Shown piece after piece: positions 12,847 through 51,320 of a DNA stretch of 64,000 nucleotides. The translations under genes were made by a program, and so were the position numbers. The notes beneath the pieces were generated by a model, which had not been told where the DNA came from, made no database searches, and worked only from the letters and a program-made list of their open reading frames with translations. The DNA comes from Membranipora membranacea. Its lineage: Eukaryota; Bryozoa; Gymnolaemata; Cheilostomatida; Membraniporidae. Every line of letters starts with the position of its first letter. The first letter of the stretch is position 1. The DNA is taken from assembly GCA_914767715.1 (NCBI GenBank), contig OU612074.1, positions 15,610,062 through 15,674,061 of the forward strand, read 5' to 3'.

Positions 12847-12856
12847 CACAGTTATT

Positions 12857-16396: not shown

Positions 16397-17238
16397 ATGT
16401 ATCTTTCTGTAAGACTAGGATCCTCAGTTCTTCTGGCTGTGCTTTATATCTTTATCAGTATGGAGTATGCTGCAGCCTACTACAATAAAGACCTGGTATG
16501 TACACCTCAGTATAGTCTTTGAATAAATAAACATTTTCAACTGTCAGAGTTTATCAAATTGAGTAAAGTTCCTTGAATTGTTTCCTTCATTTTGGCAATC
16601 TTCTCTTTCTCAGAAATATCAAGGTTTCCATGAATTAGTAACAGGTAAAATTTAAATCGGACAGGCAAGGGAAAAACCTTATAATAATGATGATAAATTG
16701 TCTGTCAGATCTCTTTTGCACCTTTTCCGAACATTCTTATTTCTACTGATGTGTAAATCAAGTTTAGATTAAAGTGTAAAGATTAAGGTATTTATTTGGA
16801 GAGATCTTAAAAGCGGTGGACATTGCTGTGTCACATCATGTTCAGATTATGTTTACAAAGGGAGATAGATATTTGAACTTTCTAGCACGGAAACAAAAGA
16901 AGACATTCCATACTATTTCTTAAAATTTTGTCAGTAGCTTTCTCGGGCAACAATTTAATCAAAAAAATGATATAGATGCAATCGGCGGTTGCAGCTTGAG
17001 TCAACATGGTCTTGTATCAATCGCGTTGATTGTGGTGCTTCCTAAACAACACAGTAAGCTTATTCTTACCCATCTTCTAGCGATGATTGGCTCAGATATG
17101 TTTGAAAATTCTCATTTGCCTTGTTTATTTGATGAACATCATTTTATAAGAGTGTATACTATTTTGTAGTGCTACATTCGATGTGATCGTTTTCAGAAAT
17201 CAGCAAATTTGAATAAATTCTGCAAATCGCTCTGTTGA
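16397..17238 (+). CDS. secreted four-cysteine mini-peptide, type A
   Basis: Two exons, 16397-16495 and 17170-17238, encode about 55 residues. Exon 1 (33 codons, phase 0, donor GTATGT) is a signal peptide with hydrophobic core 'SSVLLAVLYIFI' and a likely cut after 'AAA'. Exon 2 follows 'TTTTGTAG' and has cysteines spaced C-x3-C-x12-C-x3-C, with the last Cys immediately before TGA. The predicted mature peptide is about 28 residues, and its cysteine exon is basic (two Arg, three Lys, one Asp). AATAAA lies about 75 nt after the stop. The minus-strand copy at 39.3-40.2 kb has the same exon 2 protein sequence with only silent changes, which argues the gene is real. The CX3C...CX3C pattern fits a helical-hairpin fold. 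Function is unknown, with defence, signalling or venom-like roles all open. Confidence 0.7.
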
Positions 17239-17312
17239 CATGGTGCTGCTGGTGGAAAACAACCTGATGACTAATGAATATGACCTTGCAATACATTAGA
17301 ATATTTATGCAT

Positions 17313-17318
17313 AATAAA
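17313..17318 (+). terminator. poly(A) signal AATAAA after type A mini-peptide
   Basis: AATAAA about 75 nt past the stop codon, followed by A/T-rich sequence, is consistent with a short 3' UTR. Confidence 0.45.
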
Positions 17319-18552
17319 ATATTATTTTCAAAATATAACAATGTTTATAAATTATCTTATTTTCTCCTTTCCCCTCCACACATGTTGAGCTTTAATCATA
17401 CTATATTGGCTACTAGCTATATAGATATTTTAACTTTTTCTCAGATCAACCTTGATTTGTTCAATGTTATAATGATTGTTGCTAAGTCAATGATTTCTGT
17501 AAAATATTAGCTTGTTAGATATCAGAATGGCTCCACATCTTGGTGCAAAATGAGAAGCAGTTTATAAGGAGAGAATAGCATATTGTATTAGTATCAGATT
17601 TCCATCCTTTCATGCAGTAATTACAAGAGAAAAACAAATAATTTGTAAAAATGTGGAAATTCTATCTTTGCTGTGAATTGTAGTTGAGTTGCATCCCCAT
17701 GAGTAAAGGGAACATAACTCACAAAACAAATAAGTAGAAGCGCAATCAGAAGAATATAGGTCCTGATGCATCATGCTGGTAAATGTGCGTGAGTCTAGCC
17801 TCTTCCAAGTTTTTAAGTTTGAAACAATTTTGAAATATGACAAGCTCGATTGGTCAGCGATTCAAAGATGGTTTAGTCACAGCTTGGCATGATGTATCCT
17901 AATGTCACTAGTTACCTTCAAACAACAAGAATGAAAACCACCTGCCTATATATATATAAATAATATATATAGATATAATATTAGTTGCTAACACTGATTT
18001 CTGCACTGATGATGCCGTTGGTAGTATCAAAGTTTTTTTTATATTGAGAAATTTGAAGTGGTTCCCACAACAAACTCATCATTGCATTGGTTGCGATAAA
18101 TTGACTTCAATCACCAATATAAGGGAGATGAAATACACCACCGAAGTCCAGTGCAAAGCACAGCAATCTTATGAACAGATTCTTTATCCCATAAGTTAAA
18201 TCTTCATTCAGGGTTGTAGTTTAGAAAGTTTAATGGGGAGTCAATATCACAACAGCATTGGGTGTGGCGGCATTTTCATCTTCATCAAGTGTAGTCTAGC
18301 CGCCAAAGCATTGTCTGTGTAAAGATGATAATGAATATCCAAACAAAGTTTTTTGTTTGTGACACAGGTCGTTGTTAAAGTGCATTATGCCACTTTAATT
18401 TGCTTCCTAGGGGAGGCATTGCTTCCCCGCCACCCCTTGACTACCTGCATTTACACCACAGTCTCACCCCACTATTGCAGGCTCGAAATTCAGCTTTAAA
18501 TTACCTTCTGTAGCCTTCAAAAATTGAGTTGAGTTGATTTTAACCTGTCAAG

Positions 18553-19794
18553 ATGAATATTTTGAATGGCGTATGTTCATCAGTCCTGCTGGTAGTTCTG
18601 TGCCTTAGATGAAAAAGTGAGTACTATCTGTGTTATAAGTAGGAGCACACAATTTTGATTTTGTCCGATTGCATTTCGATGGTTGCATTTGGCCATGGTA
18701 GACTGTTTTAATCCCTGTAATAGTCTGAGGCCCCCAACCTCTTGACCCCACATGACAACATTAATAGCGTCAATAAGCAGAGGAAAATCGATAAATATTT
18801 AAAGCACGTCATCAAATAATTATAATATGCTAGAAAATAATAGGGAACAGAAGTACAAGATACCAAAGCCATTTTTGGTTTCTTATGCTACGCAATAGAA
18901 ATATTGGCGGCAAAAATCATTTATCTTTTGGTTCAATAACCAGTGAAAACACAAAAAAGTTATCAATTGCTTTGTAACTACCACATCATTGGTCGTCATG
19001 AATAGATTTTACTTTTATTTGACTGGTACAAATGAAGATACAGCTTGCAAATTCTCTCTTCAAGGTTTGTGATGGGCCCCTTTGCTCATGTCCCAGTCTG
19101 CCATGCTAGTTGCATTTGGAATAGGTTTATGAAAAAGTTTAGTGCCCCGATCAATGCCTTGCAGAAGGCCCCAATTACCAAAAGGAGTCAGGAGTGGTGT
19201 GACGGTTAAGGGTATGGACTTGTGATCTTATGATCTTATGATCCAGGTTCGATTCCCGGCGCCGGCTGTCATTTCTGATTTGGCACTGGCAAGCCATCAT
19301 CCTAGCCAGGTCTGTTCGGATCAGGACCATAAATACAGGAGGTTTACTGTGTGCTTGCATGCAGTATAAAGATCCCCTCTGCCTCTTCAACGGCGGGCAA
19401 GGGTATAGGGTACTACCCCACACAAGCCACCCAAGCTTAAGGGGGCCCGTTAAATAGGGCGGTCTAATAAGACCTAGTGCATAGAAAAAAAAAAAAAAAA
19501 GTCTGTCAGTCAGTGTGCTGTGTTCATCAACCATTTTTCTTATTTGATTAATATTTATTATTTAATGAGTTTTAATTTTTGTTAATATTAATTTTTATTC
19601 TGTAGTGCTGGAGCAGATCTAACAAGATTGCACTAACTCTCAAAATAAACTGCCTAGCTCTATGCAGTCGATTGAAAGGATGGGGATTTAAGAGGGAAAT
19701 AATCCCATTTGGATCTCATAGAGAAATAACCCCGTTTGGATCTCAGAGAGAAATAACCCTGTTTGGATCTCAGAGAGAACTAACCACGAAATAA
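18553..19794 (+). pseudogene. mini-peptide unit with broken signal exon and repeat-tailed exon 2
   Basis: Exon 1 starts at 18553 with the family signal sequence (SSVLLVVLCL), but a deletion of about 36 bp relative to the paralogue at 29877 brings an in-frame TGA after 18 codons. Exon 2 (19606-19794) is open for 62 codons. It begins CWSRS, so the second Cys is Ser; the last two Cys keep the x3 spacing. After a GFKR dibasic site come tandem repeats of the pattern PFGSxREIT, encoded by a 27-bp DNA unit. AATAAA lies 38 nt past the stop. The unit is probably non-functional unless exon 2 is spliced to the upstream signal exon at 16397. Confidence 0.55.
19184..19500 (+). mobile_element. tRNA-derived SINE, family 2, with poly(A)
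   Basis: The head carries 'GGTGTGACGGTTAAGGGTA' and a B box 'GGTTCGATTCC', followed by an unrelated body and a 16-nt A tract. In the duplicated segment the same site is uninterrupted ('TACCAAAAGTCTGTCAG', about 30545). This gives an empty site and shows insertion after the segmental duplication. A short 'AAAAG' direct repeat may be the target duplication. Confidence 0.85.
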
Positions 19795-20638: not shown

Positions 20639-22224
20639 ATGACTATTTTGGATGGAATATGTTCCTCAGTCCTGCTGGCAGTTCTGTTTCTTATGATCAG
20701 CACAGAGTATACGGTTGCAGACTCCTACCGTGACGAAGTGAGTACAACCTGTTCAATTATATATGATAGCTATGATTGATCATAGCGGTCAACGGTCATG
20801 CATGAATCTAGCTTCGTCTAATTCTTAAGTTTGAAACAGATTTGAAATTTGACAAGCTCGCTTGGTCAGTGATTCAAAGATGGAATAGTCACAGCTTGGC
20901 ATGGTGTATCTTAATGTGACCAGTGAACTTTGAACAACAAGAATAAGAACCCTAGGCCTATATTCATATATATAATATATATACATATTATATCAGTTGC
21001 CAAAACTGAGTTCTGCACCGATGATACTGTGGATAATATGAAAGTTATTCTATGTTAAGAAATCAGAAATGATTCTCACAACATATTCATCATTGCTTGG
21101 TTGCCATAAGTTGACCTCAATCACCCATATAAGGGATATACGTCATACTACCGAAGTCCAGTGCTAAGCACAGCAATCTTACAAACAGATGCTAATTCCC
21201 ATAAGTTTAATCATCATTCGGAGTCGTAGTTCGGAAAAATTTTAAAGGGTCAGAGTAACACCAGCATTGAGTGTTGGGTAATCTGAACGCCCGGATTCTT
21301 GCCCACCGTCAGGCGGCCCCTCCCCAGATGTTGGGGAATTATCCTTTTCATTCAGTACGGACATAGTCAAAGCTCTAGTTGACAGAGCATTGTATGTGTA
21401 TAAATAAAAATGGAAATCCGAACAAAGATTTTTTTTTCGGACACGGGTTTCTGTTATAGTGTAATTATAGTATATTATGCTTTATGGGGAGGCATTGCCT
21501 CCCTGCGGCCCCTAGACTACCTGCAATTCCACCAAATATGTTTCACCAACTATTGCAGGGACGTAATTCTGCTTCATCATACCTTCTGTGGCCTTCATAG
21601 CCTGTCAAGATGAATATTTTGAGCGGCTTATGTTCCTCAGTCCTGCTGTCAGTTCTGCTTCTTCTTATCAGCACATTATTGCATGGTTATCATGAATAGA
21701 TTTTACTTATATTTAGCTGGTCCAGATGAAGATAGACTTAGCAACTTTTCTCTACAAGTCTTGCCATGGGCCCTTTGCTCATTCCCCAGCCTACCAATAC
21801 CATGCATGTTGCGTTTCTGGTATAAAAAAGTTAAGGGCCTTCAGCAGGACGTTATTGCACCCTGAAGCACAGAGGTGCTTGGGGCTGAGATTGCTATTTT
21901 ATGACATCTGATACTCGCACTAAAAATATACCTTTACCACAGAGACCTGATTTTGGTTTTGGCTTTTACCAATGCCAGTGTCTCACCGAATTTCATGGCT
22001 TGTGTGTCAGTGTTTGGGATAAATCCATCCATCCGTGAAAGCCTTGCAGAAGACCCCAATTACCAGAAGAATGGCAATCAATGTTCTGTTTTAAACAACC
22101 ATATTTTATGTTTCAATTGGTATTTATTTTGTAGTGCTGGAGAAGATGTAACAAGAGTGCACTAACTCTCAAAATTAACTGCGTAGCTCTATGTGATGGA
22201 TTGAAAGGATGGGGATTTAAGTGA
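20639..22224 (+). CDS. secreted four-cysteine mini-peptide, type B, short form
   Basis: Proposed exons are 20639-20737 (33 codons, donor GTGAGT) and 22135-22224 (29 codons, acceptor TTTTGTAG). Exon 1 is a signal peptide with core 'SSVLLAVLFLMI'. Exon 2 begins CWRRC and shows C-x3-C-x10-C-x3-C, then ends GWGFK and TGA. The paralogue at 33406 has AGA in place of this TGA and continues into a repeat tail. Here the tail sequence is still present and open for a further 38 codons after the stop. A second, broken signal exon lies within the proposed intron (21610-21699) and must be skipped. The downstream poly(A) word reads AATACA rather than AATAAA. Exon pairing is inferred from phase and order. 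Confidence 0.5.
21610..21699 (+). pseudogene. truncated mini-peptide signal exon fused to intron sequence
   Basis: The frame opens with the family signal sequence (SGLCSSVLLSVLLLLIST), then runs straight into sequence that is intronic in the 18.55-kb unit and stops after 29 codons. A deletion removed the end of exon 1 and its donor. The near-identical copy at 32930 has the same deletion, so the break predates the segmental duplication. Confidence 0.6.
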
Positions 22225-22402
22225 GAAATAACCCCGTTTGGATTCCAGAGGGAAATAACCCCAAAAACCCCATTTGGAGCTCAGAGGGAAATAACCCCGA
22301 AAACCCCATTTGGATCTCAAAGGGAAATAACCTCAAAATAATGACTTATTTTGCATAACATCGAGTTAGCTATTACAACTAATACAATTTCTGAGTAAAA
22401 AT

Positions 22403-22433: not shown

Positions 22434-22441
22434 GTAAAAAT

Positions 22442-24207: not shown

Positions 24208-24755
24208 ATGAATATTTTGGATGGAATATGTTCCTCAGTCCTGCTGGCAATTCTGTTTCTTATGATCAGCACTGAGTATTCTCTAGCAGACTCCGACCGT
24301 GACGAAGTGAGTACAACCTGTTCAATTATATATGATAGCTATGATTGGTCATAGCGGTCAACAGTCATATCATATCGGTCATAGTTTACAGTTAAATCCC
24401 TTTGGGTGACAACAAGAGAATGCACTAAAACCATCTATTGGTAAGTAATTTTCATACCACCAGGTAAAAGATATTGGTAACAACTTTCCTTTACAAGATT
24501 TGTGATAGGCCAACAATCTCATTTTTCATCCTACCATGCAAGTTACTTTTGGCCATACAAAGTATAGCTAATTGCCGTCATCAAAGCTTCAAGCCACAGC
24601 CATATGCCAGCCAAGGAGCTGTTTTCACCTATTTCAAACGATATGATGATTGATTTATTTTGTAGTGCTGGAGTAGATGTGATCGAATAGGAGCATTGTA
24701 CAGAGACGACTGTAAACTTATATGCGATGTGATTCCCGCAAATATCGGGAAATAA
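24208..24755 (+). CDS. secreted four-cysteine mini-peptide, compact two-exon gene
   Basis: Exons are 24208-24306 (33 codons, donor GTGAGT) and 24666-24755 (29 codons plus TAA, acceptor TTTTGTAG). The intron is only 359 bp, making this the clearest gene of the family. Exon 1 has a hydrophobic core 'SSVLLAILFLMI' with a likely signal cut near 'SLA'. Exon 2 begins CWSRC and has C-x3-C-x10-C-x3-C. Between the cysteine pairs lie alternating charged and hydrophobic residues (DRIGALYRDD), as expected for a short amphipathic helix. The tail ends NIGK with no repeat. No lesion is seen. The product is about 62 residues before processing, with a predicted mature peptide of about 35. Fold is inferred from cysteine spacing; role unknown. 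Confidence 0.7.
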
Positions 24756-25930
24756 CCATAGAAAAAAGAATTAATTTGCACTGGTGTAACTCTTAAATTA
24801 ACAAATTATCTGAACCTCTAAAGCTTATTATCGATGACTTCATGCTTATACGGGTTACGTTAGCATGTGGTCCATAATATGATTTTCTAAAATATACTGT
24901 CCTAAGGGCAGGGAGAAGTTTTCATAGCAGGCAATTTAGTGGAATAATGGATAAATGTAGGGTTCCCATCCATGTTAGAACTTTGTTTAGTATTTATAAA
25001 GTAAAAATGATCACATTAATCTTAGTGTCAACTTTACATGGAATTGTCCCCTCGTGTATGAAGGGGGGAAAACTCTTTCAACAAACTTCAATATTCATTG
25101 AATTCTTTGTGAAGTTAAATGGAGGAAAGTGAGAGGTTAAGATTGAGAAGCTTGAATTGGTTAATTCTAGAAAAAGTAGCAGTGATAGTCCAGGTTTGCA
25201 CTGATTTGGTTACAGTAATCACGATTTAAGCAAAAGACAGCATGTGACTCATGACAATAATCACACCATCATGTGGTTGCGTTAGTGGACATGATTTCTT
25301 ACCCGATATATAGAAAAACTTTAAAGCTCATCTTCGCTTATAGAAGTGTTTAGAATATCATGATAACGCAACAACGCTGTCAGAAGATGCGCTTTGAGTC
25401 AACCGCAAAGCATACTACAAAGGAGTAGTACATTAAAGCATCTTGTCATGAGAGCAAATATCACACCGAATTGGGTAAATTGGAAAGTTAAATGTATTTC
25501 ACTGAATGCTGTACAAACATTCTTAGCTTGTGGACCCTGTCATTTGGTTGGAGGCAGTTGCGACAAGCCCATACAATTAATGCATTGTAGTTATTTGCAG
25601 TATAGCGATAAGGATGAAGAGAATACGGGTCATACCTGCATTTCAGTACCAACCCTCTAACTCAATTCTTCGGTTGTAACATATTCTTAGTGGATCATGA
25701 GACACAGAATAGGCAAAAGAACTGTTGAGCAAAGTATTCAGCTCAATGGATGCATTATTTGAGAGGCAACACCAGTATCAAACTATAGAGCACTTGCCTC
25801 AACGTCAGTGGCATCAAATTTGCACCGGAATAAAGTGCGATGATGTATATTCTCTGAAATGCTGATTAATATTCTGAGAATATTCATCTGCCTGCCATAT
25901 GAGGCTATTAGAGCCCCATATCGTACTTAA
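24756..25930. other. 3' flank of mini-peptide unit, with an inverted copy at 49.2-50.5 kb
   Basis: The segment at about 25375-25700 matches 49160-49480 in reverse. The frames there resemble each other at protein level, sharing 'LVMRA', 'CHLVGG' and 'NW..WK'/'RWEHWK'. The similarity is probably of duplicated non-coding DNA, because both frames are otherwise full of indels. The segment at 24800-25100 recurs, inverted, at 50.2-50.5 kb. Confidence 0.45.
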
Positions 25931-27760: not shown

Positions 27761-28517
27761 AGTGTAGCAGTTATTTAACAAGGAATCCATTGTTTATTGT
27801 AGTTTTTCTAGTTTCACAGAATTGATCCGTTATATTCTGTCATTTTAGCTTTTTCAATTATATGATGGGTTTAATTTTTGTTTGACAAATGGTTTTTCGA
27901 CGGGAAAGTCAGTTAACACTGTTGAGATTAGAGATAGGTAAGTGTTTGGTGTGTCGGCGTGTATATGTGTAAAGTCAGCACAACTCGATGCCTTATCGAT
28001 CACCCTGTGATTTGCTCGCTATTTGAAGCTGCTCTCATAGCTATTGGAGGAGAAAGTTGCATTTTGCTTTAATTTAATGTGAATCTCTGTCTTTTGGGCA
28101 CATAATAGATACGATTGAAATGGATCATCTGCTGACAAATATTTCTTTCAGTTTAGGCAGTTACTTCATCATTTATGTTTTTCTGTCATTCTGAGAATCC
28201 ATTATATTATGCCACACTTTAGTATTACCAACCTCCCTGCTTTGTCCTTAGTTGGCCTTTTGCTACCAACACCAAAACAAAGTGAGTGTATTGGTCACCA
28301 ACACCCCCCCCCCCCCCCAATAGTGCAGTCCAGAGCATGAAGCAAAAACATTTTCATCAGGTTTTTGTTCCCCTCGAATTAATCACCATAACCGCGAATT
28401 CATCTCGACTAAACAGTTGGGGCACCAAATAAGTCTCAAATCATAACTTATGCGTCTTTGAACTATAAAAGTTGTGTATTTTCTTACAGCTAAAGCAGTT
28501 CTTTCTAACTTCACAAC

Positions 28518-28616
28518 ATGCATCTTTCTACAAGACTTGGATCCTCAGTTCTTCTGACTGTGCTTTATCTCTTTATCTCTATGAAGTATGCTGCAGCCTA
28601 CTACAATAAACACCTG
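28518..28616 (+). pseudogene. orphan mini-peptide signal exon, type A
   Basis: A full 33-codon signal exon (core SSVLLTVLYLFI, ending AAAYYNKHL) with intact donor GTATGT and an upstream TATAAA. The matching cysteine exon is gone. The deletion joins sequence equivalent to 16866 directly to sequence equivalent to about 17655. It could only be used by splicing to a cysteine exon further downstream, such as 30657. Confidence 0.65.
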
Positions 28617-29876: not shown

Positions 29877-30770
29877 ATGAATATTTTGAACGGCGTATGT
29901 TCATCAGTCCTGCTGGTAGTTTTGTGCCTTATGATCAGCACAGAGTATACTGTAGCTAACTCCTTATATGAAAATGTGATGCTATCTGTGTTATGAGTAG
30001 GAGCACACAATGTTGACTTTGTCCGATTGCATTTCGATGGTTGCATTTGGCCATAGTGGACTGTTTTAATCCCTGTAATAGTCTGAGGCCCCCAACCTCT
30101 TGACCCCACCTGACACCATTAATAGCGTCAATAAGCAGAGGAAAATCGATTAATATTTAAAGTACGTCATCAAATAATTATAATATGCTATAAAATAATA
30201 GGGAACAGAAGTACAAGATACCAAAGCCATCTTTGGTTTCTTATGCTACGCAATAGAAATATTGGCAGCAAAAAATCAGTTATGGTTGGAATCTTTTGGT
30301 TCAATAACCAGTGAAAACACAAAAAAGTTATCAATTGCTTTGTAACTACCACGTCATTGGTTGTCTTGAATAGATTTTACTTTTATTTGACTGGTACAAA
30401 TGAAGATACAGTTTGCAAATTCTCTCTTCAAGGTTTGTGATGGGCCCCTTTGCTCATGTCCCAGTCTGCTATGCTAGTTGCATTTGGAATAGGTTTATGA
30501 AAAAGTTTAGTGCCCCGATCAATGCCTTGCAGAAGGCCCCAATTACCAAAAGTCTGTCAGTCAGTGTGCTGTTTTCAACAACAATTTTTCTTATTTGATT
30601 AATATTTATTATTTAATGAATTTTAATTTTTATTAATATTAATTTTTATTCTGTAGTGCTGGAGCAGATGGAACAAGATTGCACTAATTCTCAAAATAAA
30701 CTGCGTAGCTCTATGCAGTCGATTGAAAGGATGGGGATTTAAGAGGGAAATAATCCCATTTGGATCTTAG
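29877..30770 (+). pseudogene. mini-peptide unit with weakened donor, lost cysteine and early stop
   Basis: Exon 1 (29877-29975) is open for 33 codons with a good signal core, but its donor reads GTGATG instead of GTGAGT. Exon 2 (30657-30770, 37 codons) begins CWSRW, so the second Cys is Trp. The second pair keeps its x3 spacing. The frame passes the GFKR dibasic site and stops at TAG after one repeat start (PFGS). The following repeats are therefore untranslated. Three separate lesions suggest decay, though a two-cysteine peptide is possible. Confidence 0.6.
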
Positions 30771-31954: not shown

Positions 31955-33612
31955 ATGATTATTTTGGATGGAATATGTTCCTCAGTCCTGCTGGCAGTTC
32001 TGTTTCTTATGATCAGCACAGAGTATACAGTAGCAGACTCCTACTATAGTGAGGTAAGTACAAGCTGTTCAATTATTATATGATAGCTATGATTGATCAT
32101 AGCGGTCAACGGTCATGCATGAATCTAGCTTCGTCTAATTCTTAAGTTTGAAACAAATTTGAAATTTGACAAGCTCGCTTGGTCAGTGATTCAAAGATGG
32201 AATAGTCACAGCTTGGCATGGTGTATCTTAATGTGACCAGTGAACTTTGAACAACAAGAATAAGAACCCTAGGCCTATATTCATATATATAATATATATA
32301 CATATTATTATATCAGTTGCCAAAACTGAGTTCTGCACCAATGATACTGTGGATAATATCAAAGTTATTCTATGTTAAGAAATCAGAAATGTTTCTCACA
32401 ACATATTCATCATTGCTTGGTTGCCATAAGTTGACCTCAATCACCCATATAAGGGATATACGTCATACTACCGAAGTCCAGTGCTAAGCACAGCAATCTT
32501 ACAAACAGATGCTAATTCCCATAAGTTTAATCATCATTCGGAGTCGTAGTTCGGAAAAATTTTAAAGGGTCAGAGTAACACCAGCATTGAGTGTTGGGTA
32601 ATCTGAACGCCCGGATTCTTGCCCACCGTCAGGCGGCCCCTCCCCAGATGTTGGGGAATTATCCTTTTCATTCAGTACGGACATAGTCAAAGCTCTAGTT
32701 GACAGAGCATTGTATGTGTATAAATAAAAATGGAAATCCGAACAAAGATTTTTTTTTCGGACACGGGTTTCTGTTATAGTGTAATTATAGTATATTATGC
32801 TTTATGGGGAGGCATTGCCTCCCTGCGGCCCCTAGACTACCTGCAATTCCACCAAATATGTTTCACCAACTATTGCAGGGACGTAATTCTGCTTCATCAT
32901 ACCTTCTGTGGCCTTCATAGCCTGTCAAGATGAATATTTTGAGCGGCTTATGTTCCTCAGTCCTGCTGTCAGTTCTGCTTCTTCTTATCAGCACATTATT
33001 GCATGGTTATCATGAATAGATTTTACTTATATTTAGCTGGTCCAGATGAAGATAGACTTAGCAACTTTTCTCTACAAGTCTTGCCATGGGCCCTTTGCTC
33101 ATTCCCCAGCCTACCAATACCATGCATGTTGCGTTTCTGGTATAAAAAAGTTAAGGGCCTTCAGCAGGACGTTATTGCACCCTGAAGCACAGAGGTGCTT
33201 GGGGCTGAGATTGCTTTTTTATGACATCTGATACTCGCACTAAAAATATACCTTTACCACAGAGACCTGATTGTGTGTCAGTGTTTGGGATAAATCCATC
33301 CATCCGTGAAAGCCTTGCAGAAGACCCCAATTACCAGAAGAATGGCAATCAATGTTCTGTTTTAAACAACCATATTTTATGTTTCAATTGGTATTTATTT
33401 TGTAGTGCTGGAGAAAATGTAACAAGAGTGCACTTACTCTCAAAATTAACTGCGTAGCTCTATGTGATGGATTGAAAGGATGGGGATTTAAGAGAGAAAT
33501 AACCCCGTTTGAATTCCAGAGGGAAATAACCCCAAAAACCCCATTTGGATCTCAGAGGGAAATAACCCTGAAAACCCCATTTGGATCTCAAAGGGAAATA
33601 ACCTCAAAATAA
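31955..33612 (+). CDS. secreted four-cysteine mini-peptide, type B, with repeat tail
   Basis: Proposed exons are 31955-32053 (33 codons, donor GTAAGT) and 33406-33612 (68 codons plus TAA, acceptor TTTTGTAG), about 101 residues. Exon 1 is a signal peptide. Exon 2 begins CWRKC with C-x3-C-x10-C-x3-C, then a short linker ending at the dibasic site GFKR. The tail then repeats: one nine-residue unit, two twelve-residue units of pattern REITxKTPFGSQ, and a terminal REITSK. Each unit starts at an Arg that could be a processing site, so the precursor may release one cysteine-rich peptide plus several short linear peptides. This is the longest intact member. AATAAA lies 40 nt past the stop. A broken signal exon (32930-33019) lies in the intron. 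Confidence 0.55.
32930..33019 (+). pseudogene. truncated mini-peptide signal exon
   Basis: Same sequence and same fusion to intron DNA as 21610-21699. It stops after 29 codons and lacks a donor site. It must be skipped for the surrounding gene to work. Confidence 0.6.
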
Positions 33613-35434: not shown

Positions 35435-36110
35435 ATGAATATTTTGGATGGAATATGTTCTTCAGTCCTGCTGGCAGTTCTGTTTCTTATGATCAGCACA
35501 GAGTATACGGTAGCAGACTCCTACCCTAGTGAGGTGACTACAAGCTGTTCAATTATTATATGATAGCGATGATTGGTCATAGCCGTCAACGGTCATATCA
35601 TATCAGTCGTGGCGAACAGTCAAATCCCTTGAATTGTGGCAATAAACAGTGAAACGTGTGGTCTATTGAGATAAATTTGGTGTCAAACTATATAAATATC
35701 GTCAACAAAATCATCAACTTTGGGTGACAAAACAAGAGAATACACAAAAACCACCAGTTGGTAGGAAACTTTCATAACGGCAAGTAATGTAAATAAATTT
35801 TACTTGAAGTTAGCTGGTCTAAATGCTTATAACTTTCTAAGTCACTTTTGGCCATAGGAATTAAAGTTAATTGCCGCCATCAAAGCTTCACAAGAGGTCT
35901 CAATAATAAAGAATATGCCAGTCAAGGTGCTGTTTTCACTTATTTTGATCGGTATGATGTTTCATAATTATTATATTATATTTTATTGAATTATATTAAA
36001 TCATATTATATTATATTCTGTATTGCTGGAGTAAATGTAACCACAGAGCTGGAGAGAACATAAATATCTGCATGAATTTATGCAGAGGTTTGGAGGTCGG
36101 AGGGAAATAG
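35435..36110 (+). pseudogene. mini-peptide unit with damaged splice sites
   Basis: Exon 1 (35435-35533) is an intact 33-codon signal exon, but its donor is GTGACT. Exon 2 (36024-36110, 28 codons plus TAG) begins CWSKC and keeps C-x3-C-x10-C-x3-C. The acceptor is TCTGTAT instead of TTTTGTAG, so the AG is lost. The coding parts are undamaged, so the lesions may be recent or another acceptor may be used. Confidence 0.55.
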
Positions 36111-37734: not shown

Positions 37735-38570
37735 ATCTTACACAACTAAAACGACTTAAAACAATCAGAACCTTCATTCCTGAAAGCCAGTTTTCCACAC
37801 TCATACATGCATTCATTACAAGCAGGCTTGATTTCTGTAACTCATTCTTCTACGCATTACCTGACAATCTAGTCTCACGTCTCCAAGTCATTCAAAATTC
37901 CTGCGCTAAATGTATCACAGGTACAAACCACTATTCGTCAGCCACTGAAGCCAGGGTTAAACTGCACTGGCTACCCATCAGGTCCCGATCAAAATTCAAG
38001 TTATCCATCATGGCTCATAAAACTGTCCGTCATCCCCATCTCATCCCTTCCTACATTTCTCAATCTTTCACAACTTCTAAGCATTCCCGAACCACTCGCT
38101 TCAAATTAGCCAACACTCTTGTGAGCAATTTTAAATGTAGGCTAAAAACAGTGGGTGGTCGATCTGTTAATTCCACTTTACCAGCTGTATGGAACTCCCT
38201 ACCATCTTACCTTCGCGATCTCCCTTCGACCTCCTCATTTAAATCATAGTTAAAAACGTATCTTTTCCGGGACGCATATACTCCATTTATGTAAGTTTTA
38301 TAGTGGATTTTTAGGCGCTGGGCAGTTGCCACTTGTAGGTTTTAATTATCTTAATTATCTCATCTTTCATCATTTTTTTCTCATCTCATTACTTATTTTC
38401 ATGATAACAAAATTTTAATCAATATTATTTATTTTACCAGCAGGCTTATTTCTTAGTATATGTTTCTATTTTAACCTTTTATCACATGTACAACGCTTAG
38501 AAATAATTGTTTTTAAACAATTTTATTAAGCGTTTCATAAATAAACTTTATTATTATTATTACTATCAAG
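37735..38570 (+). mobile_element. 5'-truncated LINE (CR1/L2-like), RT C-terminus and 3' end
   Basis: Readable plus-strand segments are 'LIHAFITSRLDFCNSFFYAL', 'LQVIQNSCAKCITG', 'VKLHWLPIRSRSKFKL' and 'TLPAVWNSLPSYLRDL'. These are classic C-terminal motifs of CR1/L2-type reverse transcriptase ORFs. Stops and a frame change interrupt it. It ends with AATAAA and an ATT-rich tail at about 38535-38573. The element is dead and marks the end of the minus-strand mini-peptide arm. Confidence 0.85.
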
Positions 38571-38599: not shown

Positions 38600-40770
38600 C
38601 TAATATAATATGTATATACATAGCAATGAGTTCTTATCTTCATCATTTAAAATTATCTGGTGACATTGAGTTAAACCATTCCAAGCTGTGACTATTATAT
38701 CTTTGAACCAAGCCATCTTCTCAAATTTCAATCTTGTTTAAACTTTAAATTAGGAGGAGGCTAGACTCATGCAGATTTACATGATATAATGCATTAGGGC
38801 CACGAATATGCTTCTATTAATTTGTTTGGGAGTTTTGTTCCCTTTACTCATGGGGAAACAACTAAACTATAACTCACAGCAAATATAGAACTTTAACATT
38901 TTACGAATAACTTGTTTTTCGCTGTGATAATTACTGATTGATGGATGAAACGCCGATACCTATACAATATCCTCCTCACTTCTCATAAACCTCTGGTCAT
39001 TAAGCACCTATATATGGAGCAATGCTGATCAAACAGCCTAATATTTTGCAGAAATTATTCACTGCGTAACAAATGATCATGACCGTTTGAACCATTTAGG
39101 GCTGATTAGTGAAAAAGGTGAAAATAATATCTATATAGCTAGTCGCCAATATAGTATAATTAAAGTTTAAGATGAGTGGAGCGGAAAGGAGAAAATAAGG
39201 CAATCTATAAACTTTGAGAAACAATCAAGAGACATTTTGAAAATAATATTTTTTTATGCATAAATATTTTATATGTGAATGCATCATGAGGTCATAATCA
39301 TGAGTCATTAGGTTGTTTTCCATCAGTAGCAGGATGTCAGCAGAGCGATTTGCAGAATTTATTCAAATTTGCTGATTTCTGAAAGCGATCGCATCGAATG
39401 TAGCACTACGAAATAGTATACACTCTTATAAATTGATGTTCATTGAGTATACTAGAAAAATATAAATTTTCAAATATATCTGAGCCAACCATCGCTAACA
39501 GGTGGCTAAGAATACGCCTACTCTGCTGTGTTATTTGGAACCGTCACAATCACTGCAAAGGCTTACTCAAACCGCAACTGCCGATTGCAACTATATTATT
39601 TTTTAATTAAATTGTTGCCTGAGAAACCTACTGACCAAATTTGAAAAAATAGAATGTAATGTCTTCCTTTGTTACCATGCTAGAAAATTCTAATATCTTT
39701 CTCCCTTCGTAAAAATAATCTAAACATGACGACACTGACTTAAAATTTTCTCCAAATAAATACCTTAATCTATACACTTTAATCTGAACTTAATTTACAA
39801 ATCAGTAGAAATAAGATTGTTCGGAAAGGTGAAACAGAGATCCGACAGACAATTTATCATCATTATTATAAGGTTTTTCCCTTGTCGCTCCGATTTTAAT
39901 TTTACCTGTTACCATTTCATGGAAACCTTGATATTTCTGGGAAAGAGAAGATCGCCAAAATGAAGGAAACATTTCAAGGAATTTTACTCAATTTGAGAAA
40001 ATCTGACAGTTGAAAATGTTTATTTATTCAGAGACTATACTGATTTGTACATACCAGGTCTTTATCGTAGTAGGCTGCAGCATACTTCATACAGATAAGT
40101 AGATAAAGCACAGCCAGAAGAACTGAGGATCCTAGGCTTATAGAAATTTGCATGTCGAAAAATTGGAAAGAAACGCTTTAGCTGTAAGAAAATACACTAC
40201 TTTTATAGTTCAGAGATGCAGAAGTAATGATTTTAACCTAATTTTGTGCCCAACTGCAACTATTTACGATAACGGTGATTAATTTCACGGGAACAAGCAG
40301 ATGATGAAAATGTTTTTGCTTCATGCTCTGGACTGCTCTATTGGGGGTGACAAATCTACTTACTCACTTTGGTGTTGGTGGCAAAGGGCCAACTAAGGGC
40401 AAAGCAGTTAGGATAGTAATACAAAAAAGTGTCATAATGGAAGGGATTCTGAGAATAACAGAAAAACAACTGAATTTTCAAAATAATAATAGTGATCTCA
40501 TGCGGAAGAGGTGATATCAGTTTTGACAAGTCGAGGTTGAGAGCTGAAAAAAGAAGAGAATACATTGTTTATATTAAAGTCAGCAAATCATCTTCAATGA
40601 GACAATTCCGATAGGATTAGATGTTGAATAACTGCCTACGCTAAAAGAAATAATTATAAACAGATGATAGGTTTTAATCATGTCTGTGCCCCCAAGACTC
40701 TTGCCCCTACCAACCTCCCCCACCCCCGGACGGAGAGTAACATCATATTAAAAAAACAAGCATGATTAAA
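38600..40770 (-). repeat. inverted copy of the 16.0-17.9 kb mini-peptide segment
   Basis: Reads, on the minus strand, colinear with 16.0-17.9 kb, including TATA region, both exons, intron and 3' flank. Divergence is higher than between the two tandem copies, so this inverted copy is older. Confidence 0.85.
39337..40153 (-). CDS. secreted four-cysteine mini-peptide, type A, inverted copy
   Basis: Exons (minus strand) are 40055-40153 (33 codons, donor GTATGT) and 39337-39405 (22 codons plus TGA, acceptor TTTCGTAG). The signal exon has core 'SSVLLAVLYLLI' and ends AAAYYDKDL. Exon 2 has C-x3-C-x12-C-x3-C. Against the plus-strand gene at 16397, exon 2 differs at three bases, all silent third positions, whereas exon 1 has nine changed codons, all replacements. 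The TATA word is retained upstream. This contrast is the best internal evidence that the mature peptide is translated and constrained. Confidence 0.7.
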
Positions 40771-40845
40771 CTGTCAACGGAGTTATAATATAATTCCCAC
40801 AATGCAACTTTCCAATACCTACACTAGACACTAGTACACCATTAC

Positions 40846-43427: not shown

Positions 43428-44794
43428 GTAGAGATTAACTTGCAGGTTATTAAGTATGCTTGCAAACTAATCTATACCAAGTCCCCAGTATTGTATTTTA
43501 TATATTATAATAACAACTTGCATCGGTTCCATGCATTATTGCACGAATGTGTAGAGTTACAATGATGATTACCGCATGATCTTATACGTACAACACAATA
43601 TTAGACAACAAATTACTAGACAATAGTATTAAGACAATAGTTTTGATCAAAAAGAGAAGCAGAAATTTATCATTGCCCTAATATATAGAGGGAGGGAGTC
43701 TGTTCATTTTGGCGTTGGTCATTGCGCGGTAAAACCAGTACATGTTCGTATTGATGTTCGTTGTGGTTTATTTTTTAGATATAACCCCTCCTGGAGCATG
43801 GAAAGTCAGGCGCAAGTTCATCATGTCAGTTCTCAAACAACATGGTGTAGGTGAGCCTGGTTATTTGGCAGTTTAGATGTGCATAGGGCAAATAAGTTTT
43901 ACCTTTTCAAACATTTCCTAACATTATCACCACGTTTGATAATTTAATTCCACAAAACTACCACCTGCAGCCGTCTTAGCACTATATTTAAAGTGAAAAT
44001 GCAGGACCCACCTCAAACAAAGGTGGCATTATTGGCTTTGAGATGTGCGAGGGACCGAAAGGTGAATTCGTTACATCAATACTTTCAGTGAAAAACTTAG
44101 GCCTAATATTATTGTTACAACTGCCCCATTCATTTCATATGGACCATCTTCGGCTTGGTTTTAAATGTGTATCCTTGATTGTGAATGCACTAACAAGAAT
44201 ATTTGCACGTGAATGTTGTATCTTTAGGTGGGAAAGGCATCGAGGGTACTATCCATGAAGAGATATCCCACTTCTTCAACTTAGTGAATTCTAAAGAGGG
44301 AGAGCCTATGGATCTTGAAGACACATTGCAAAAAGTCTCGTCAAATGTGATAACAGAAGTCCTGTTTGGAAGACGCTTTGATTATGATGACAAGCATGTC
44401 TTAGATTTTGATTTTGCCACTTATGTTGGTATGAGGTTCAAAGCGGAAATGTTACCCTTCATACCAGTAAGTATTGAAATGATGAATATATCCAAATTAT
44501 ACTCAATTTCAAATGAACGCTGGAATTAGAACTCAAAACCCATTGAGTGCATTCAAAACAGTAAAACCAAATGAATCACCAAGCCTGACAATTCTTAACT
44601 TTACACTGGGTGGTTTCAGCTGAAGTTAGGGATTGTAAAAATATCCTCAACACTCAGTGTTGATGACAACTAGAGAACTCAACATCTCATTATGATGTGT
44701 AGGTGAATATGCGTTTTGAAAAGTATTGGAACACCATTCAGAGCCACCACATTAGAAAATAAGCGCATTTATATTTGTCACGAATCATATCAGG

Positions 44795-45012
44795 AGTAGG
44801 AAGTAGCTCAGTTGGTCAGAGCGCCTGCCCTCTAATGCGCAAGTGTTGAAGAACTTTGGTTCGATTCTCTCTGCAGTCTACCGACAACCGGCCCGGATGT
44901 GCTACAACCTGTCTTTAAACTGGGAGAAACTTGGCGCTGAATACGGCAGCTGCGCCCATAAGGCACTGTTATATCTCAGTCTTCAGACAGAGACAGACTT
45001 GCGATTTTAAAC
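44795..45012 (+). mobile_element. tRNA-derived SINE, family 1, in intron of P450 paralogue
   Basis: The head is 'AGTAGCTCAGTTGGTCAGAG' with B box 'GGTTCGATTCT', followed by the same body as the 6.0-kb copy. The matching intron of the other P450 copy is only about 203 bp against about 586 bp here, so this insertion is copy-specific. Confidence 0.8.
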
Positions 45013-46286
45013 CTCATAAACCCCATGTATGCATGCCAATGTGATCTTGCAGTTTACATCGGCGTACAGGAAGGAGAAAAGTAAGGTGGACAATTCAATT
45101 GAGGTGATGGAGGAGCAAATACAAGAACACAGAGAAAGCTTGGACGATGAAGCCGTAAAACAAGATATGATCCACTCCTTCTTAAAGGAGCAACGCAAAC
45201 AGAAGGAAAATCCCAAGAGCCATTTCACAGGTGGGCATTATAAAGCCGATGTGTTTGCTCTGAACAGCCGGTGGGAGGGAATGAAAGAGCCAATACCAGG
45301 TCAGATAGTACTTTCCTGGAAGTACCTATTGATGTCAATGTGAATGTGTAAGTAATGCAGTTTCTCTTTCACTATGTCACAAAAGGTCATTCAGTCACCT
45401 GGCAATGGCTCTCTTTCCCACTCGACAGCCACTCATTTCAGAACCTACACCTTGGCTAGGCATCATATCGTAAACATTCAATGTGAAATTGATCTCTAAT
45501 GATGAAATTGAAAGTATGATGTCGGTTTTCAATGCTGTTCATGTTTGTTTCCATGTTTAAAAAATGGGACAGACTTGCATATGACAAGAATACACACATT
45601 TTTGATGACCAACTGTTCTCCCTGAAATGAAAAATAAATGCGTTTGAATACCCTATATAGGCGCTTCAATTTGAATCTTTGTTGATTAATAAATTTGAAT
45701 ACAGAAGCCAGTTTCTAGCAATTAATTGAACATAAAAAAAATGCTGATATTTAAACCATTCAAACCATAATCAAAAATTATTGATTTGAAATTTATTTTT
45801 CCCTTCTTATTGATGGCTTATTTTCATCAAATGATTATTATGCCATAAAGATTAAACAGAGCGTTGTGGCTGTTTCATTAATTGACTTGGCAAACACCTG
45901 CATTAAGAAAGAGCAGGTAATTCGAAAAGGCAGAGAAATATTTTGGAAAAAACGCGTCTACGTCAAGTTGCCTGCGCGTATATGAGAGCCTTATATCAAA
46001 GAATAGAGAATGAAAGCTATAGAATCTAAAACAACTCTCTTATTGTTACAGATGAGTTACTATTGTCTAATATATCAGGACTTTACTTGGCCGGCACTGA
46101 CACCACTGCATACTCACTGTACTGGGCTTTCCTATACCTGGTCCTCTATCCCGACGCACAGGAGAGAATGAGTACTGAGATAAGAGAGGTATTAGGTGAG
46201 AACAATCGGTACTTCTAAACGGCAAAAATATATTCTTGTTGCACAGATTATTGGGAAGATAATGTTTCGCTTTAGCCTTTCATAAC

Positions 46287-46632
46287 AAGCTTTGTTGGAG
46301 GGGGAACAAAACATGGAAATCCCGTGAAGACAACTCTTCTAAATCTTTCCCATCCAAATTGAATAATCGTTTTCTTGCTGAATTCACAGGGAAAACTTTT
46401 CCTATCGATAGCCTTTTTCATAAGAGGGGAAAATTCAATTTGGATGGGAGAAATTTGGAATTCCGTAAAATAAGAAGAGCCGTCTGCATGGGATTTCTAC
46501 TCTCCAATCCAATTTATCCCAGGATTTTAGTAAAGTTTTCTACCAATTTCAAGATGGGACAATTCGGCCTCTTGATAGCTCATTTGCAAGAGTTGAAAGC
46601 TTTGCTCCTCCCCCAATGTATATCTAGGTTTT
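46287..46632. repeat. palindromic intron segment of P450 paralogue
   Basis: 'CCATCCAAATTGAAT' (about 46350) faces 'ATTCAATTTGGATGG' (about 46434), with further complementarity outside. Counterpart of 6880-7200, but diverged. Confidence 0.55.
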
Positions 46633-48121
46633 AGAGCTCTCACACTAAGAACTGTGATTTTAATGATTTTGTTGATGGTTATGGTTCTTACTGCTGCTAC
46701 GCTACGATGACAATAATAATTTGCCTGATCGATGACAAGGTGTGATGGTTCACAACACCGCTATGATACCATGATATAGTTTGACAAACACCACATGGGC
46801 TTCCAGTTACCACACATAATAACATCGGTTGTTTTCGTCGGAAGTACTCCTCTTTCATTCATACTTTCTCTTTCACAGGTGCAAGACCTGTGAGCTACTC
46901 CGACAGGGAGATATTGCCATTCACTGCGTCGGCAATAACAGAGTTGATAAGGGCGCCGTTATTAGGTGGCGGTGGTCTCCCAAATGTAGCTCTTGAAGAC
47001 GTGACTGTTTGCGGTGTGCGCATACCAAAAGGTAAATCAAGATTTTCCAATCATATTTTGCTCTTATACAAGCGATCATTGGGAGCAGGAACAAATCTGC
47101 AACACAGATCTTGGTCGGTTCCAATGATAGCCTATATAAAAGAGAAATCTGACCAAATGCACTGGCAGAAAAATCTGCACCTTTACCTACCATAAACTTC
47201 AGTCATGGCTGTTGCACACTGGTTAGCAAGGGATGGGAAGTATTCAATTATGCCATGAACATTTGGATTCAGGCCGCAATCGCTGCTCTCATTTACTAGG
47301 GTCTTGACTTTACTGATACAGGTTGTGTGCATGTATACCGATTTCAATTATGTCGATTTCAATATTATATTACATATCAACTTTGTCTATTGCCAGGTGC
47401 CTGTGTGGTGGCAAATAATTTCTCCACATGTCATAATGAAGAAATGTACCCTGATTCCGGAACCTTCAAACCCGACAGATTTCTAGATTCAGATGGGAAG
47501 TTTAAAAAGCCTGAGAAATTCTACTGGACCCCTTTTGGAATAGGTGAGCGGATATTATATTTTCAATTTTTGAGGCTTCTAGATCATCAGGCATAAATGT
47601 GGATTGAGAAATAGCTGTTGGACTAAAGGATAAAAGCAAAGTTTAGATCAAATCGCCCTTAATGCACAATATTGAATCATACTAAAATGATGATGATTTG
47701 ATTTAAATATATTATATAATATTAATGTATATATTAAAACAATTCTATGCAGGAGTACTACAGACTAATTTATTTTCAAAGCAACTTTTCTATTCACTAT
47801 TCTTTGTGTGGGAGGACTACCACAAGATCAAAAAATCTATCACCAAAGCTGAAAAGTGATGAAAAAAGCCATCCATATCATCTGACCAAAGATAAATGTA
47901 TCTGATATAAGATTTACTGTCATATAATTTTTTCAGGGAGAAGAATATGTCTGGGTCAGCACCTAGCGCAGACAAAGATGTTTCTATTCGTGGTAACTGT
48001 ATTACAAAATTACAGAGTAATTCTCGGACAGGAAGAGAGACCTTCTCTCAAAGGAGCAGTTAAGAGACTGTTGAGTGCCCCGGTAAAAAATTACTTTGTT
48101 CAGCTGATTCCGCATAGTTAA

Positions 48122-49634
48122 ATCAGATATATAGCACTGGTACCTGGTAGTTTTGTGGAAAATATTACAAAGAGATTATTATTTGGTTGTTATATAGACA
48201 ATCCACTATGAGTTGTCGGTTACTTACTGGGTTAATGCTAGAGACTAGGCGCAAGGAATTTTAATAAAGTTTAAAAAACAGATGAGGAACTATACAGACT
48301 CAAAATCTAACATGGATTAATTTTATTCAAAAGCCATTCCTATTAGCTAATGACACTGTCTTTAAAAAGACATTATGTTTCTTTGCCAGAAAAAACTGAT
48401 TTGAATTTGTAGAATCCGCACTTGCCATTGGGGCCAAATTATTCTGTATGGCATCAGCATTTCTATTAGCTTATGCAAGGGAAAATAAGATGGATAAACA
48501 GTCAATGAGATACATATGTAGGCCTACATTGCTTAAAAATCTATTTTTCTTAAGCTTCAATCTCATCGCGCTGAGTTTTTTCTAAAGTTTTGTCAAACTC
48601 TATATAGGATATTCTTATAAGATGTTGTAATACATAATGTTAACTTTATCACATTTGCATCGTACAATAAATGCTAGTTCAATGTATCCTTCTCTCTCCA
48701 ATCTTGGCCCTGACATTTCCTGGCCAGTGAGTTATTCTAGAGTACTTAGAATATGTCATTAGACAAATTATTTGCATACACACTCCTATCAGAAAAGCGG
48801 AAAAGATATGGTATTTCTATTTGAAGTCAGGTTCATGCTCCGAATCTATGACATCAATTCATCTAAAATGAACTTCATTTACAATATCAGACATTTGGAC
48901 ATTTTGAAGTATCAATTATCATGCACACTCACATGCGTTAAACTTCGTAGACCAAAGTAAGGGATATTGGAGAAACATTTTGTAGAGATGTGAACATGAT
49001 CCTTTTTTCACAAATCGACAGGACAACTCTGATCATAGAGAGGAGTTCCCATGTTATCAGGTTACAGTGTATCAAGAAAATCCAATCATATATGACAACT
49101 TTTTTATTTGAATTGCGTTCAGTAAAGACAGCTAGAGTCTTCTTGCAGCCACTGTGAAATTCCAAACTTTAATTTATAACAAAAAGAATTGTCATGCTGT
49201 TTCTATGGTCTGCAGTTTTGTATGGGCTGTAACAGATACCCCCAACCAAATGACAGTGTCCACAATCTAGGAATGATCCTAGCATGGGTAGTTTTAAGTA
49301 CCTTTGATCAGCTATCAATGCAATACAAAAATCTTTCCAGTGTTCCCAGCGTTTGATGAGCTTTGCTCTCATGACAAGAGGCTTGAATGTACTATCCCTT
49401 TGTAGTATGATTGCTGTTGAATTTGAGCGAAACTTCTGATAGTGTTGTAATGTTATCAAAATGTTTTTATCACTACTTCAAGAGAAGATAGTGCATACAA
49501 TTTTTGTTTATATTGAGTCTGAAATCATGTACAATAAAACAAACACATGATGGTGGTTAAAGTGAAACAGCGTTAACTTGGACTATCACTGCTGTCTTTT
49601 TTAACATTTCCCAATGCGAGCTTTTCAACCTTAA
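48122..49634. other. 3' flank of P450 paralogue and outer arm of inverted duplication
   Basis: No gene is seen. About 48890-49160 mirrors 4680-4960 and marks how far the inverted duplication runs. About 49160-49480 mirrors 25375-25700, so material from a mini-peptide 3' flank abuts the P450 arm. Confidence 0.55.
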
Positions 49635-50011
49635 AGGGCAACCAAGGTTTCAAACAACTTCTCATTGATGGCCATTGATTATTAGCAGATTGCACCTTCT
49701 GCATGGGGAAAAAGACAAAATATAATTCGGATGATTATTCAGCCAGAATTCTTGTGAAACATTTCTTCCATCAGGTACTCAAACTCAGATAAAAGAGAAT
49801 ACCACATAGCAGTTTCCTGTTCCTGTTATTATTTAGCCTGTGCTCTATAATTATTACAGCAAAGTCTTGGAACCTCCCCTAAACTGAAGTGTTACCCAGC
49901 TTAGAGTGAGCAACTACTTTGAGTTTTACATCGCGTAATGCACAAAGCTGATGCTACCCAGCACACTATTTGCTACCCATTGATGCATTGCTGCGAAACC
50001 TTGGTTGCCCT
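49635..50011. mobile_element. TTAA-type (piggyBac-like) MITE, second copy
   Basis: Same termini and same 377-bp length as 11603-11979, in the opposite orientation. It is flanked by TTAA at 49631-49634 and 50012-50015. The equal length and high identity suggest recent mobility. Confidence 0.85.
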
Positions 50012-50605
50012 TTAACCCCTTTCACTTTCTTCCACTTCACTCGACAAAGTTCAAAGCAGCATGTAAAGTGAACAGTGAACCATGTTAGAATTATAAGTGG
50101 GAACTGGTGGGAACTGAGCACCCACAAAGAAATATAGTGGAACCTTAAGAACACAGCTCCCACTTAGAAGTCAATGATCTTGCTGGATCTACATCTCACC
50201 TAAAAAGGCATATTTAAGTAGCTTGTATGAGTTATGTACCCCTCACTCATGAGGGGACAATTCAATGTAAATTTCACACAAAGATTAATGTGATCATTTT
50301 TCTTTCATAAATACTAAATAGAATTCTTACATGAATGACAATCCCACAATTTATCCATTAATCCACTAAATTGCCTGCAAGGAAATTTTTCCCTGCATGT
50401 GGCACAGTAAGTTTTAGAAAAGCATGTGGACAGTGCTCTGAGTGGACTTTTTCCTTTGTTGGAATTTGAAGGGGATTTTTTCGCAATATTGATGTCAAAT
50501 TCTCGTATATGAATTTGGTGTGAGGTCATTGAAGCTATATATTCAGATAATTTATTGATTTTAGAGCTACACTGGTGTATCGCTAAATGAATAATTGTTT
50601 TGCGG

Positions 50606-51320
50606 TTATTTCCCTCCGTAAATCAAACCTCCGCATAAAAGTTTACAGTCGTATCTGAGCTCTGCCTCTCTTTTATCACATCTACACTACAAAATAAGTA
50701 AAACTCATAATATTATTCAAAGTGAAAACAGCACCTTGCCTGGATTATTCTTTATCTTTGTGGTCTCGTGTAAAGCCCAAAAGTAACTTGGGTGGTAGGG
50801 TGGGACATGAGATAAGGGGGTGCCTAACAAAACCTCATAGAGGAAAGTTCCAAATTCTGCCTTTGTTTGGACAATTTACAATACAATATAATACAATACA
50901 ATATACAATGTCCTCATATAGACTAGTAAAATATATTTGCATTACCCTGTAGCATGAAATATACCTACTTACAGATAGTTATCAATTATTCAGGATTTTT
51001 TTTCACACAAAGTTGATTAATACCTCAAGAGTACCCCTCTGATAAATAAATCCAACCATTCATGATTTTTCTGTGACAATATTTATATTGTATTACACCC
51101 AAATTATACTTAAAACTCATGTGGTACATCATATCACTGCAAATCGTCACAGTTCAAGTGATAAAAATTCTCGATATGACTGATTACTACGACCAATAAT
51201 TGAAGAGGTTTTACTCACTGCTTCCATATATGTGTCAACAGTTGCAGTATACCCTGTGCTGATCAGAAGGAACAGAACTGACAGCAGGATTGACAAACAT
51301 ATACTGTTCAATATATTCAT
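50606..51320 (-). CDS. secreted cysteine mini-peptide, variant with C-x-C
   Basis: Exons (minus strand) are 51219-51320 (34 codons, donor GTGAGT) and 50606-50686 (26 codons plus TAA, acceptor TTTTGTAG). Exon 1 is a signal peptide with core 'LSILLSVLFLLI', one codon longer than its relatives. Exon 2 starts CRC, because six bases were lost where others have CWSRC. It continues x10-C-x3-C and ends YGGK. It therefore still has four cysteines but with the first pair squeezed to C-x-C, which would not suit a simple helical hairpin. The frame and splice sites are otherwise intact. Upstream DNA (about 51330-52100) is an inverted copy of that preceding the other signal exons. Confidence 0.55.

Follow-up and report, generated by a model that had tools for sequence, protein, structure and literature searches.

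A cluster of candidate two-exon secreted cysteine-peptide genes with a CX3C-Xn-CX3C motif in the bryozoan Membranipora membranacea

Plants, scorpions and cone snails are all described as having helical hairpins held together by the cysteine motif CX3C-Xn-CX3C, and related two-helix peptides occur in a nemertean and in a sea anemone (PMC7191063, PMC11722136); the sections of PMC11722136 drawn on here put the recurrence of such scaffolds down to convergence and report varied activities. Here, these systems are compared with a locus of the bryozoan Membranipora membranacea, contained in a 64,000-nucleotide window (the whole stretch analysed; contig OU612074.1, positions 15,610,062 to 15,674,061), in which short exons with predicted signal peptides and exons carrying the same cysteine motif are repeated on both strands. 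The array is well supported, from its sequence, as a family of two-exon genes for putative secreted cysteine peptides, and on balance we favour a lineage-specific animal family of effector peptides with a cysteine-stabilised helical hairpin and, most likely, a defensive role.

The plant alpha-hairpinins, EcAMP1, BWI-2 and Tk-AMP-X among them (PMC7191063), have in common with the bryozoan peptides two CX3C segments, a two-helix hairpin (predicted here) and a role in defence (proposed here), whereas their precursors, as PMC7191063 describes them, are multimodular or linked to vicilins and each bryozoan gene holds a single cysteine module in two exons. Plant alpha-hairpinin genes are reported in the same source as intronless in wheat, barnyard grass and chickweed, and elsewhere, in Macadamia, with one intron; no sequence similarity to these peptides was seen in searches of the Protein Data Bank (PDB). 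The scorpion kappa-KTx peptides, with a cysteine-stabilised alpha-alpha (CSalpha-alpha) scaffold, agree in size, CX3C-Xn-CX3C spacing, frequent C-terminal amidation and a single mature peptide after the signal, but all five precursors tabled in PMC11722136 carry a propeptide, which is absent here: six to eight residues lie between the end of the signal, judged by eye, and the first cysteine, and no dibasic site is present. No kappa-KTx chain was among the PDB sequence matches up to an expect value of 10, a search with little power for such short queries. Cone-snail framework XIV peptides vil14a and flf14a share the cysteine motif and helical hairpin (PMC7191063, PMC4278219, PMC11722136), but in typical conotoxin precursors a propeptide separates the signal from the mature part (PMC4278219), unlike in the genes described here; that review knew of no complete vil14a-type precursor. 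PpCrAMP of the starfish Patiria pectinifera is also a small cysteine-rich peptide of a marine invertebrate, and was dropped as a relative because the relevant parts of two reviews (PMC12466427, PMC11767717) give it a predicted beta-hairpin, the comparison being by description only.

Since motif and size are common to the plant, scorpion and cone-snail families, but the multimodular plant precursors and the scorpion and cone-snail propeptide are not, the bryozoan peptides were assigned to none of the three; by analogy, they may work like a CSalpha-alpha peptide. The mature amphioxus peptide BjAMP1 is reportedly alpha-hairpinin-like, according to the title of a 2018 structure paper. It was dropped as a candidate, its precursor being described in PMC4683396 as 97 residues long, with an anionic region, a dibasic site and a 21-residue mature peptide.

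Gene models and predicted peptides

A sequence-only reading had placed twelve signal-peptide exons (exon 1) and nine cysteine exons (exon 2) in the window. Each position proved to be the claimed exon or its damaged remains, and a whole-window DNA-profile search with both exons recovered the same 21 exons and one relic exon 1, with all other matches at expect values of at least 0.3. The rules for a gene model were an open exon 1, a good donor, an AG acceptor, four cysteines in CX3C/CX3C and a stop, and all of these were found in three models: A1 (16397+17170, plus strand), A2 (40153+39405, minus strand) and B (24208+24666, plus strand). The D model (51320+50686, minus strand) keeps an open frame and good splice sites, but has CX1C in place of the first CX3C as a result of a 6-nt deletion. 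Four models, two per strand, thus have intact splice sites and frames:

16397..16495, plus strand: A-type gene 1, exon 1 (signal peptide, 33 codons), donor GTATGT
17170..17238, plus strand: A-type gene 1, exon 2 (22 codons, CX3C-X12-CX3C, stop next), acceptor TTTTGTAG
40055..40153, minus strand: A-type gene 2, exon 1, donor GTATGT
39337..39405, minus strand: A-type gene 2, exon 2 and stop; mature-exon protein identical to that of 17170
24208..24306, plus strand: B-type gene, exon 1, donor GTGAGT
24666..24755, plus strand: B-type gene, exon 2 (29 codons, CX3C-X10-CX3C, Gly-Lys-stop end, a likely amidation signal)
51219..51320, minus strand: D-type gene, exon 1 (34 codons), donor GTGAGT
50606..50686, minus strand: D-type gene, exon 2 and stop (CX1C-X10-CX3C, Gly-Gly-Lys end)

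The family was initially described as more uniform and more intact than it is, while its two-exon cysteine-peptide character stands. Nine of the twelve signal exons are open and full length at 33-34 codons (18553, 21610 and 32930 are not), and their donors are GTATGT in three, GTGAGT in three, GTAAGT in one and weak in two (GTGACT at 35435, GTGATG at 29877). In all nine cases the first codon read in exon 2 is that of its first cysteine, and the acceptor ends in TGTAG or CGTAG in eight; GT donors and TTTTGTAG-like acceptors thus agree mostly, but the agreement of junctions claimed throughout breaks down at 36024, where AG has become AT (TGTAT), and at the two weak donors. The CX3C-Xn-CX3C pattern that defines the CSalpha-alpha scaffold is kept by six of the nine exon 2s, including 36024 with its lost acceptor; in 19606 a cysteine is replaced by serine, in 30657 by tryptophan, and 50686 has CX1C. 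A cysteine exon does not follow every signal exon, as 20639, 28518 and 31955 each run to the next exon 1 without one. The models 18553+19606, 29877+30657 and 35435+36024, and the copy at 28518, are damaged or incomplete.

The cysteine motif is much more frequent than expected by chance. CX3C-X10..12-CX3C without stops occurs six times in positions 1-62400 of the window, relative to a mean of 0.09 and a maximum of 1 in 200 second-order Markov sequences, and an AG acceptor precedes five of the six (0.005 expected); the six copies are not independent, because two near-identical pairs are among them.

The open exon 1s look like signal peptides; in the six of nine that were scored, the core is strongly hydrophobic, with a mean Kyte-Doolittle value of 2.55-3.17 over 11 residues. 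When transcribed and spliced, each gene would encode a signal peptide with about six to eight further residues in exon 1 and, after a phase-0 intron, a CX3C-X10/12-CX3C segment of 22-29 codons in exon 2 (68 in one extended form). Signal peptidase would cut near the end of the exon 1 peptide, releasing a mature form predicted at 28-35 residues (start judged by eye) and 3.4-4.1 kDa with no long propeptide, in which pairing of the first with the fourth and the second with the third cysteine would staple two helices as a hairpin. Exon 2 ends in Gly-Lys-stop in type B (24666) and in Gly-Gly-Lys-stop in types D (50686) and E (36024), and type A stops at its last cysteine. Gly-Lys-stop and Gly-Gly-Lys-stop are usual amidation signals, and the forms ending in Gly-Lys would be amidated; a terminal Gly or Gly-Arg is treated as an amidation signal in the relevant part of PMC11722136. 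Side-chain charge, including amidation, is +4 and +3 for the A forms, -2 for B, 0 for D and E, and +3 for the C cores.

For residues 1-30 of the 33406 exon, modelled in AlphaFold together with six relatives, helices were predicted at residues 2-6 and 10-25, with a mean predicted local distance difference test score (pLDDT) of 67.9 and a predicted template modelling score (pTM) of 0.28. The 68-residue form scored lower (pLDDT 53.6), with helices at 2-6 and 10-26 and a repeat tail of low confidence. The resemblance to helical hairpins noted from the motif agrees with this model of modest confidence and with the descriptions in PMC7191063 and PMC11722136.

Duplication history and sequence constraint

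Self-comparison of the window showed a tandem duplication of approximately 9 kb at an offset of 11-12 kb (15.5-24.4 kb versus 27.8-35.6 kb, aligned pieces 81-95% identical), from which much of the copy number arises; the second copy lacks the stretch holding the A-type cysteine exon. An inverted duplication (4600-18000 versus 38600-52100) pairs 4.6-10 kb with 43.7-49.2 kb and 15.8-18.0 kb with 38.6-40.75 kb at 72-89% identity, and each arm contains an A-type peptide gene besides CYP2-like cytochrome P450 exons. The family has spread by segmental duplication and not by transposition. Origin as part of a transposable element is unlikely in the window, because the exons are confined to the cluster (all copies lie within 16.4-51.3 kb) and travel with the larger segmental duplications. 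A 386-bp inverted pair (11598-11983 and 49631-50016, 97% identical) is apparently younger than the duplication that encloses it, and is perhaps a mobile element. The incomplete and damaged copies are as follows:

20639..20737, plus strand: intact exon 1, donor GTGAGT, without its own exon 2; may skip to 22135
22135..22224, plus strand: C-type exon 2, four cysteines, intact acceptor, GFK then stop
31955..32053, plus strand: duplicate of 20639; exon 1 intact, with donor GTAAGT, and may skip to 33406
33406..33609, plus strand: C-type exon 2, 68 codons excluding the stop, with a minisatellite-coded C-terminal extension
21610..21708, plus strand: dead exon 1 (frameshift, donor lost)
32930..33028, plus strand: dead exon 1, duplicate of 21610 (frameshift, no donor)
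18553..18606, plus strand: dead exon 1 (part of the hydrophobic core deleted)
19606..19794, plus strand: damaged exon 2 (second Cys to Ser), repeat-coded tail
29877..29975, plus strand: open exon 1, weak donor GTGATG
30657..30770, plus strand: damaged exon 2 (second Cys to Trp; premature stop)
35435..35533, plus strand: open exon 1, weak donor GTGACT
36024..36110, plus strand: exon 2, four cysteines, Gly-Gly-Lys end, acceptor AG to AT
28518..28616, plus strand: A-type exon 1, open, donor GTATGT; copy without a cysteine exon
25648..25755, minus strand: relic exon 1 with stops, absent from the sequence-only reading; expect value 3.3e-7 in the DNA-profile search

As 21610 and 32930 are frameshifted and without a donor, splicing might pass over them, from 20639 directly to 22135 and from 31955 directly to 33406; that such skipping rescues these two mature exons is a guess.

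All selection comparisons involve tiny numbers of sites. A1 and A2 differ at 14 of 165 coding bases and at 86 of 645 intron bases with 5 gap events (13%). Their mature exons have 0 nonsynonymous and 3 synonymous differences, relative to 10 and 1 in exon 1 (Fisher p 0.011), and exon 2 is 95.5% identical versus 86.7% for the intron (Fisher p 0.048). In 20,000 neutral simulations at the intron divergence, 11.2% of runs stayed open without an indel, 2.0% also kept the ATG and the cysteines, and the mature A-type protein was unchanged in 1 run. These comparisons show the A-type mature exon, as judged at the level of sequence, to be under constraint. Gene conversion of this exon is disfavoured, because its synonymous divergence (3 in 13.8 sites) is not under the 13% of the intron.

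Among the other copies, the exon 2s at 19606 (which lacks one cysteine) and 22135 are 90% identical with flanks at 73-75%, and the four B-like exon 1s (20639, 24208, 31955 and 35435) have fewer nonsynonymous than synonymous substitutions per site (dN < dS) in six of six pairs. Among the B, D and E exons dN about equals dS (dN/dS 0.47/0.45, 0.68/0.73 and 0.48/0.40); pairs with C gave 0.90/0.98, 0.55/1.11 and one saturated value. Between 24208+24666 and 35435+36024, the mature exon is only 54% identical, versus 88% for exon 1, 77% for the intron and 70% downstream. As the 36024 acceptor is lost, positive selection may explain this low mature identity no better than relaxed decay or a different origin.

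Possible roles of the peptides

The cluster probably consists of real, mostly ordinary, fast-turning-over genes for secreted mini-peptides with at least one conserved type. The family evolves by birth and death, with tandem and inverted duplications adding copies, mature exons diverging from type to type and many copies dying. Any role in defence, in signalling or as a toxin is inferred, and the peptides would most likely serve as externally secreted or epithelial defence effectors against microbes or other organisms. A more detailed version is put forward tentatively: an independently evolved animal hairpin family, with a signal exon and one mature exon without propeptide, expanded by inverted and tandem duplication beside P450 genes into a conserved cationic A type and divergent mixed-charge types, some amidated, in which skipping may rescue 22135 and 33406.

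Several observations weigh against a defensive helical-hairpin family. Pooled over both exons, A1 and A2 have 10 nonsynonymous differences in 124 sites and 4 synonymous in 41, which is near neutral; A-type exon 1 has dN > dS in three of three pairs; and exon 1 of 20639 and 31955 is 91% identical, versus 95-99% for the flanks. The 36024 copy is probably dead, and its divergence may be relaxed. A range of charge from +4 (A) to -2 (B) does not suit one shared cationic membrane-killing mechanism. The AlphaFold pTM is low, and homologue searches were negative: for the two of nine exon 2s run against Pfam, 24666 gave only matches under the cut-off and 17170 none; the best PDB sequence matches, for three single exon 2s and a nine-exon profile, had expect values of 0.59 and 2.6 and are not credible; and Foldseek found zero PDB chains for both AlphaFold models, which is uninformative at such model length. 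VIA-align likewise returned no chain for the 30-residue model. These negatives are weak, because peptides so short are hard to find.

Venom or allomone peptides, with the secreted hairpins targeting ion channels in prey, predators or competitors, are a rather unlikely alternative to the defensive family. The cysteine motif is that of scorpion kappa-KTx and cone-snail vil14a and flf14a, amidation signals are present, and the comparison of 24208+24666 with 35435+36024 shows a conserved signal and a fast-changing mature part, but A-type copies encode the same mature peptide. The propeptide of the five kappa-KTx precursors tabled in PMC11722136 and of typical conotoxins is also absent here, yet in I2 conotoxins, as PMC4278219 describes them, the mature part directly follows the signal. 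Amidated neuropeptides, hormones or waterborne pheromones are somewhat less probable again: the Gly-Lys ends and the conserved A-type mature sequence would be expected of signalling peptides, but no dibasic cleavage site lies 5' of the cysteine segment. Tandem birth and death with many dead copies and shifting charge is unusual for a hormone, and the passages on starfish and Platynereis precursors name none with CX3C-Xn-CX3C, a weak point as sequences are not shown there.

We consider it improbable that the array, duplicated together with the P450 region, is largely dead and owes its open frames to recent duplication. Damage in 18553, 19606, 21610, 30657, 32930 and 36024, loss of exon 2 at 28518, the recent tandem duplication and the near-neutral pooled counts of the A-type pair could be attributed to such decay; identity of the A-type mature protein at 13% intron divergence, and four models with intact splice sites and frames, two per strand, argue against it. 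If the defensive hairpin family is expressed, one more animal lineage uses a minimal two-disulfide helical hairpin, and the locus offers intact, drifting and dead copies for comparison side by side in a compact region. Genes with coding exons of 99 bp and 66-90 bp are easily missed by annotation.

Further searches and genomic setting

Protein-level scans of the window gave only weak extra matches (expect values of at least 0.02, e.g. 22630, 33862 and 61362), which were treated as noise. No relative of exon 2 of 33406 was found in viral contigs and no match to exon 1 of 16397 in plasmids, and the two phage records matching exon 2 of 24666 (expect value 8) are chance. Literature searches with exact motif spellings gave no match, which says little as spellings vary, and broader terms gave no obvious match, which is weak evidence.

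Upstream of the A copies lies a shared element, followed immediately 3' by TTACAG, a possible acceptor, so that these copies may have an upstream untranslated exon:

16343..16350, plus strand: TATAAAAG, starting 54 nt upstream of the ATG; in the other two A copies at 28464-28471 (plus strand) and 40200-40207 (minus strand)

GGGGA-N9-TCCC or a near form is located 124-150 nt 5' of exon 1 in eight of nine non-A copies (e.g. 20639, 24208 and 51320; not 35435) and in none of the three A-type copies, and is either a regulatory site or mere shared ancestry. Minisatellites of 27 and 36 bp lie in or just 3' of C-type exon 2 (19684-19785, 30735-31052, 22230-22338 and 33501-33609), and where the frame is open they add extra repeats of 9 or 12 residues.

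The window has a GC content of 37% and zero N, and gave no match to Rfam at gathering thresholds and no tRNA in a tRNA scan. CYP2-like cytochrome P450 pieces, one of them with matches in the PDB, are located at 5.0-9.4 kb (minus strand) and 44.2-47.2 kb (plus strand), and suggest animal DNA but no narrower group. An open frame at 37713-38249, without a Pfam match, presumably resembles the 3' end of a non-long-terminal-repeat retrotransposon. Three adjoining open frames from 56847 to 58420 gave no match; on the plus strand, 58678-58935 is an open frame like a pentraxin-type domain (under the Pfam cut-off) and 59587-59895 one like a PAN domain (over the cut-off). A long GTAGCAGTG minisatellite occupies 62517-64000 and extends past the window end, its repetition keeping several frames open.

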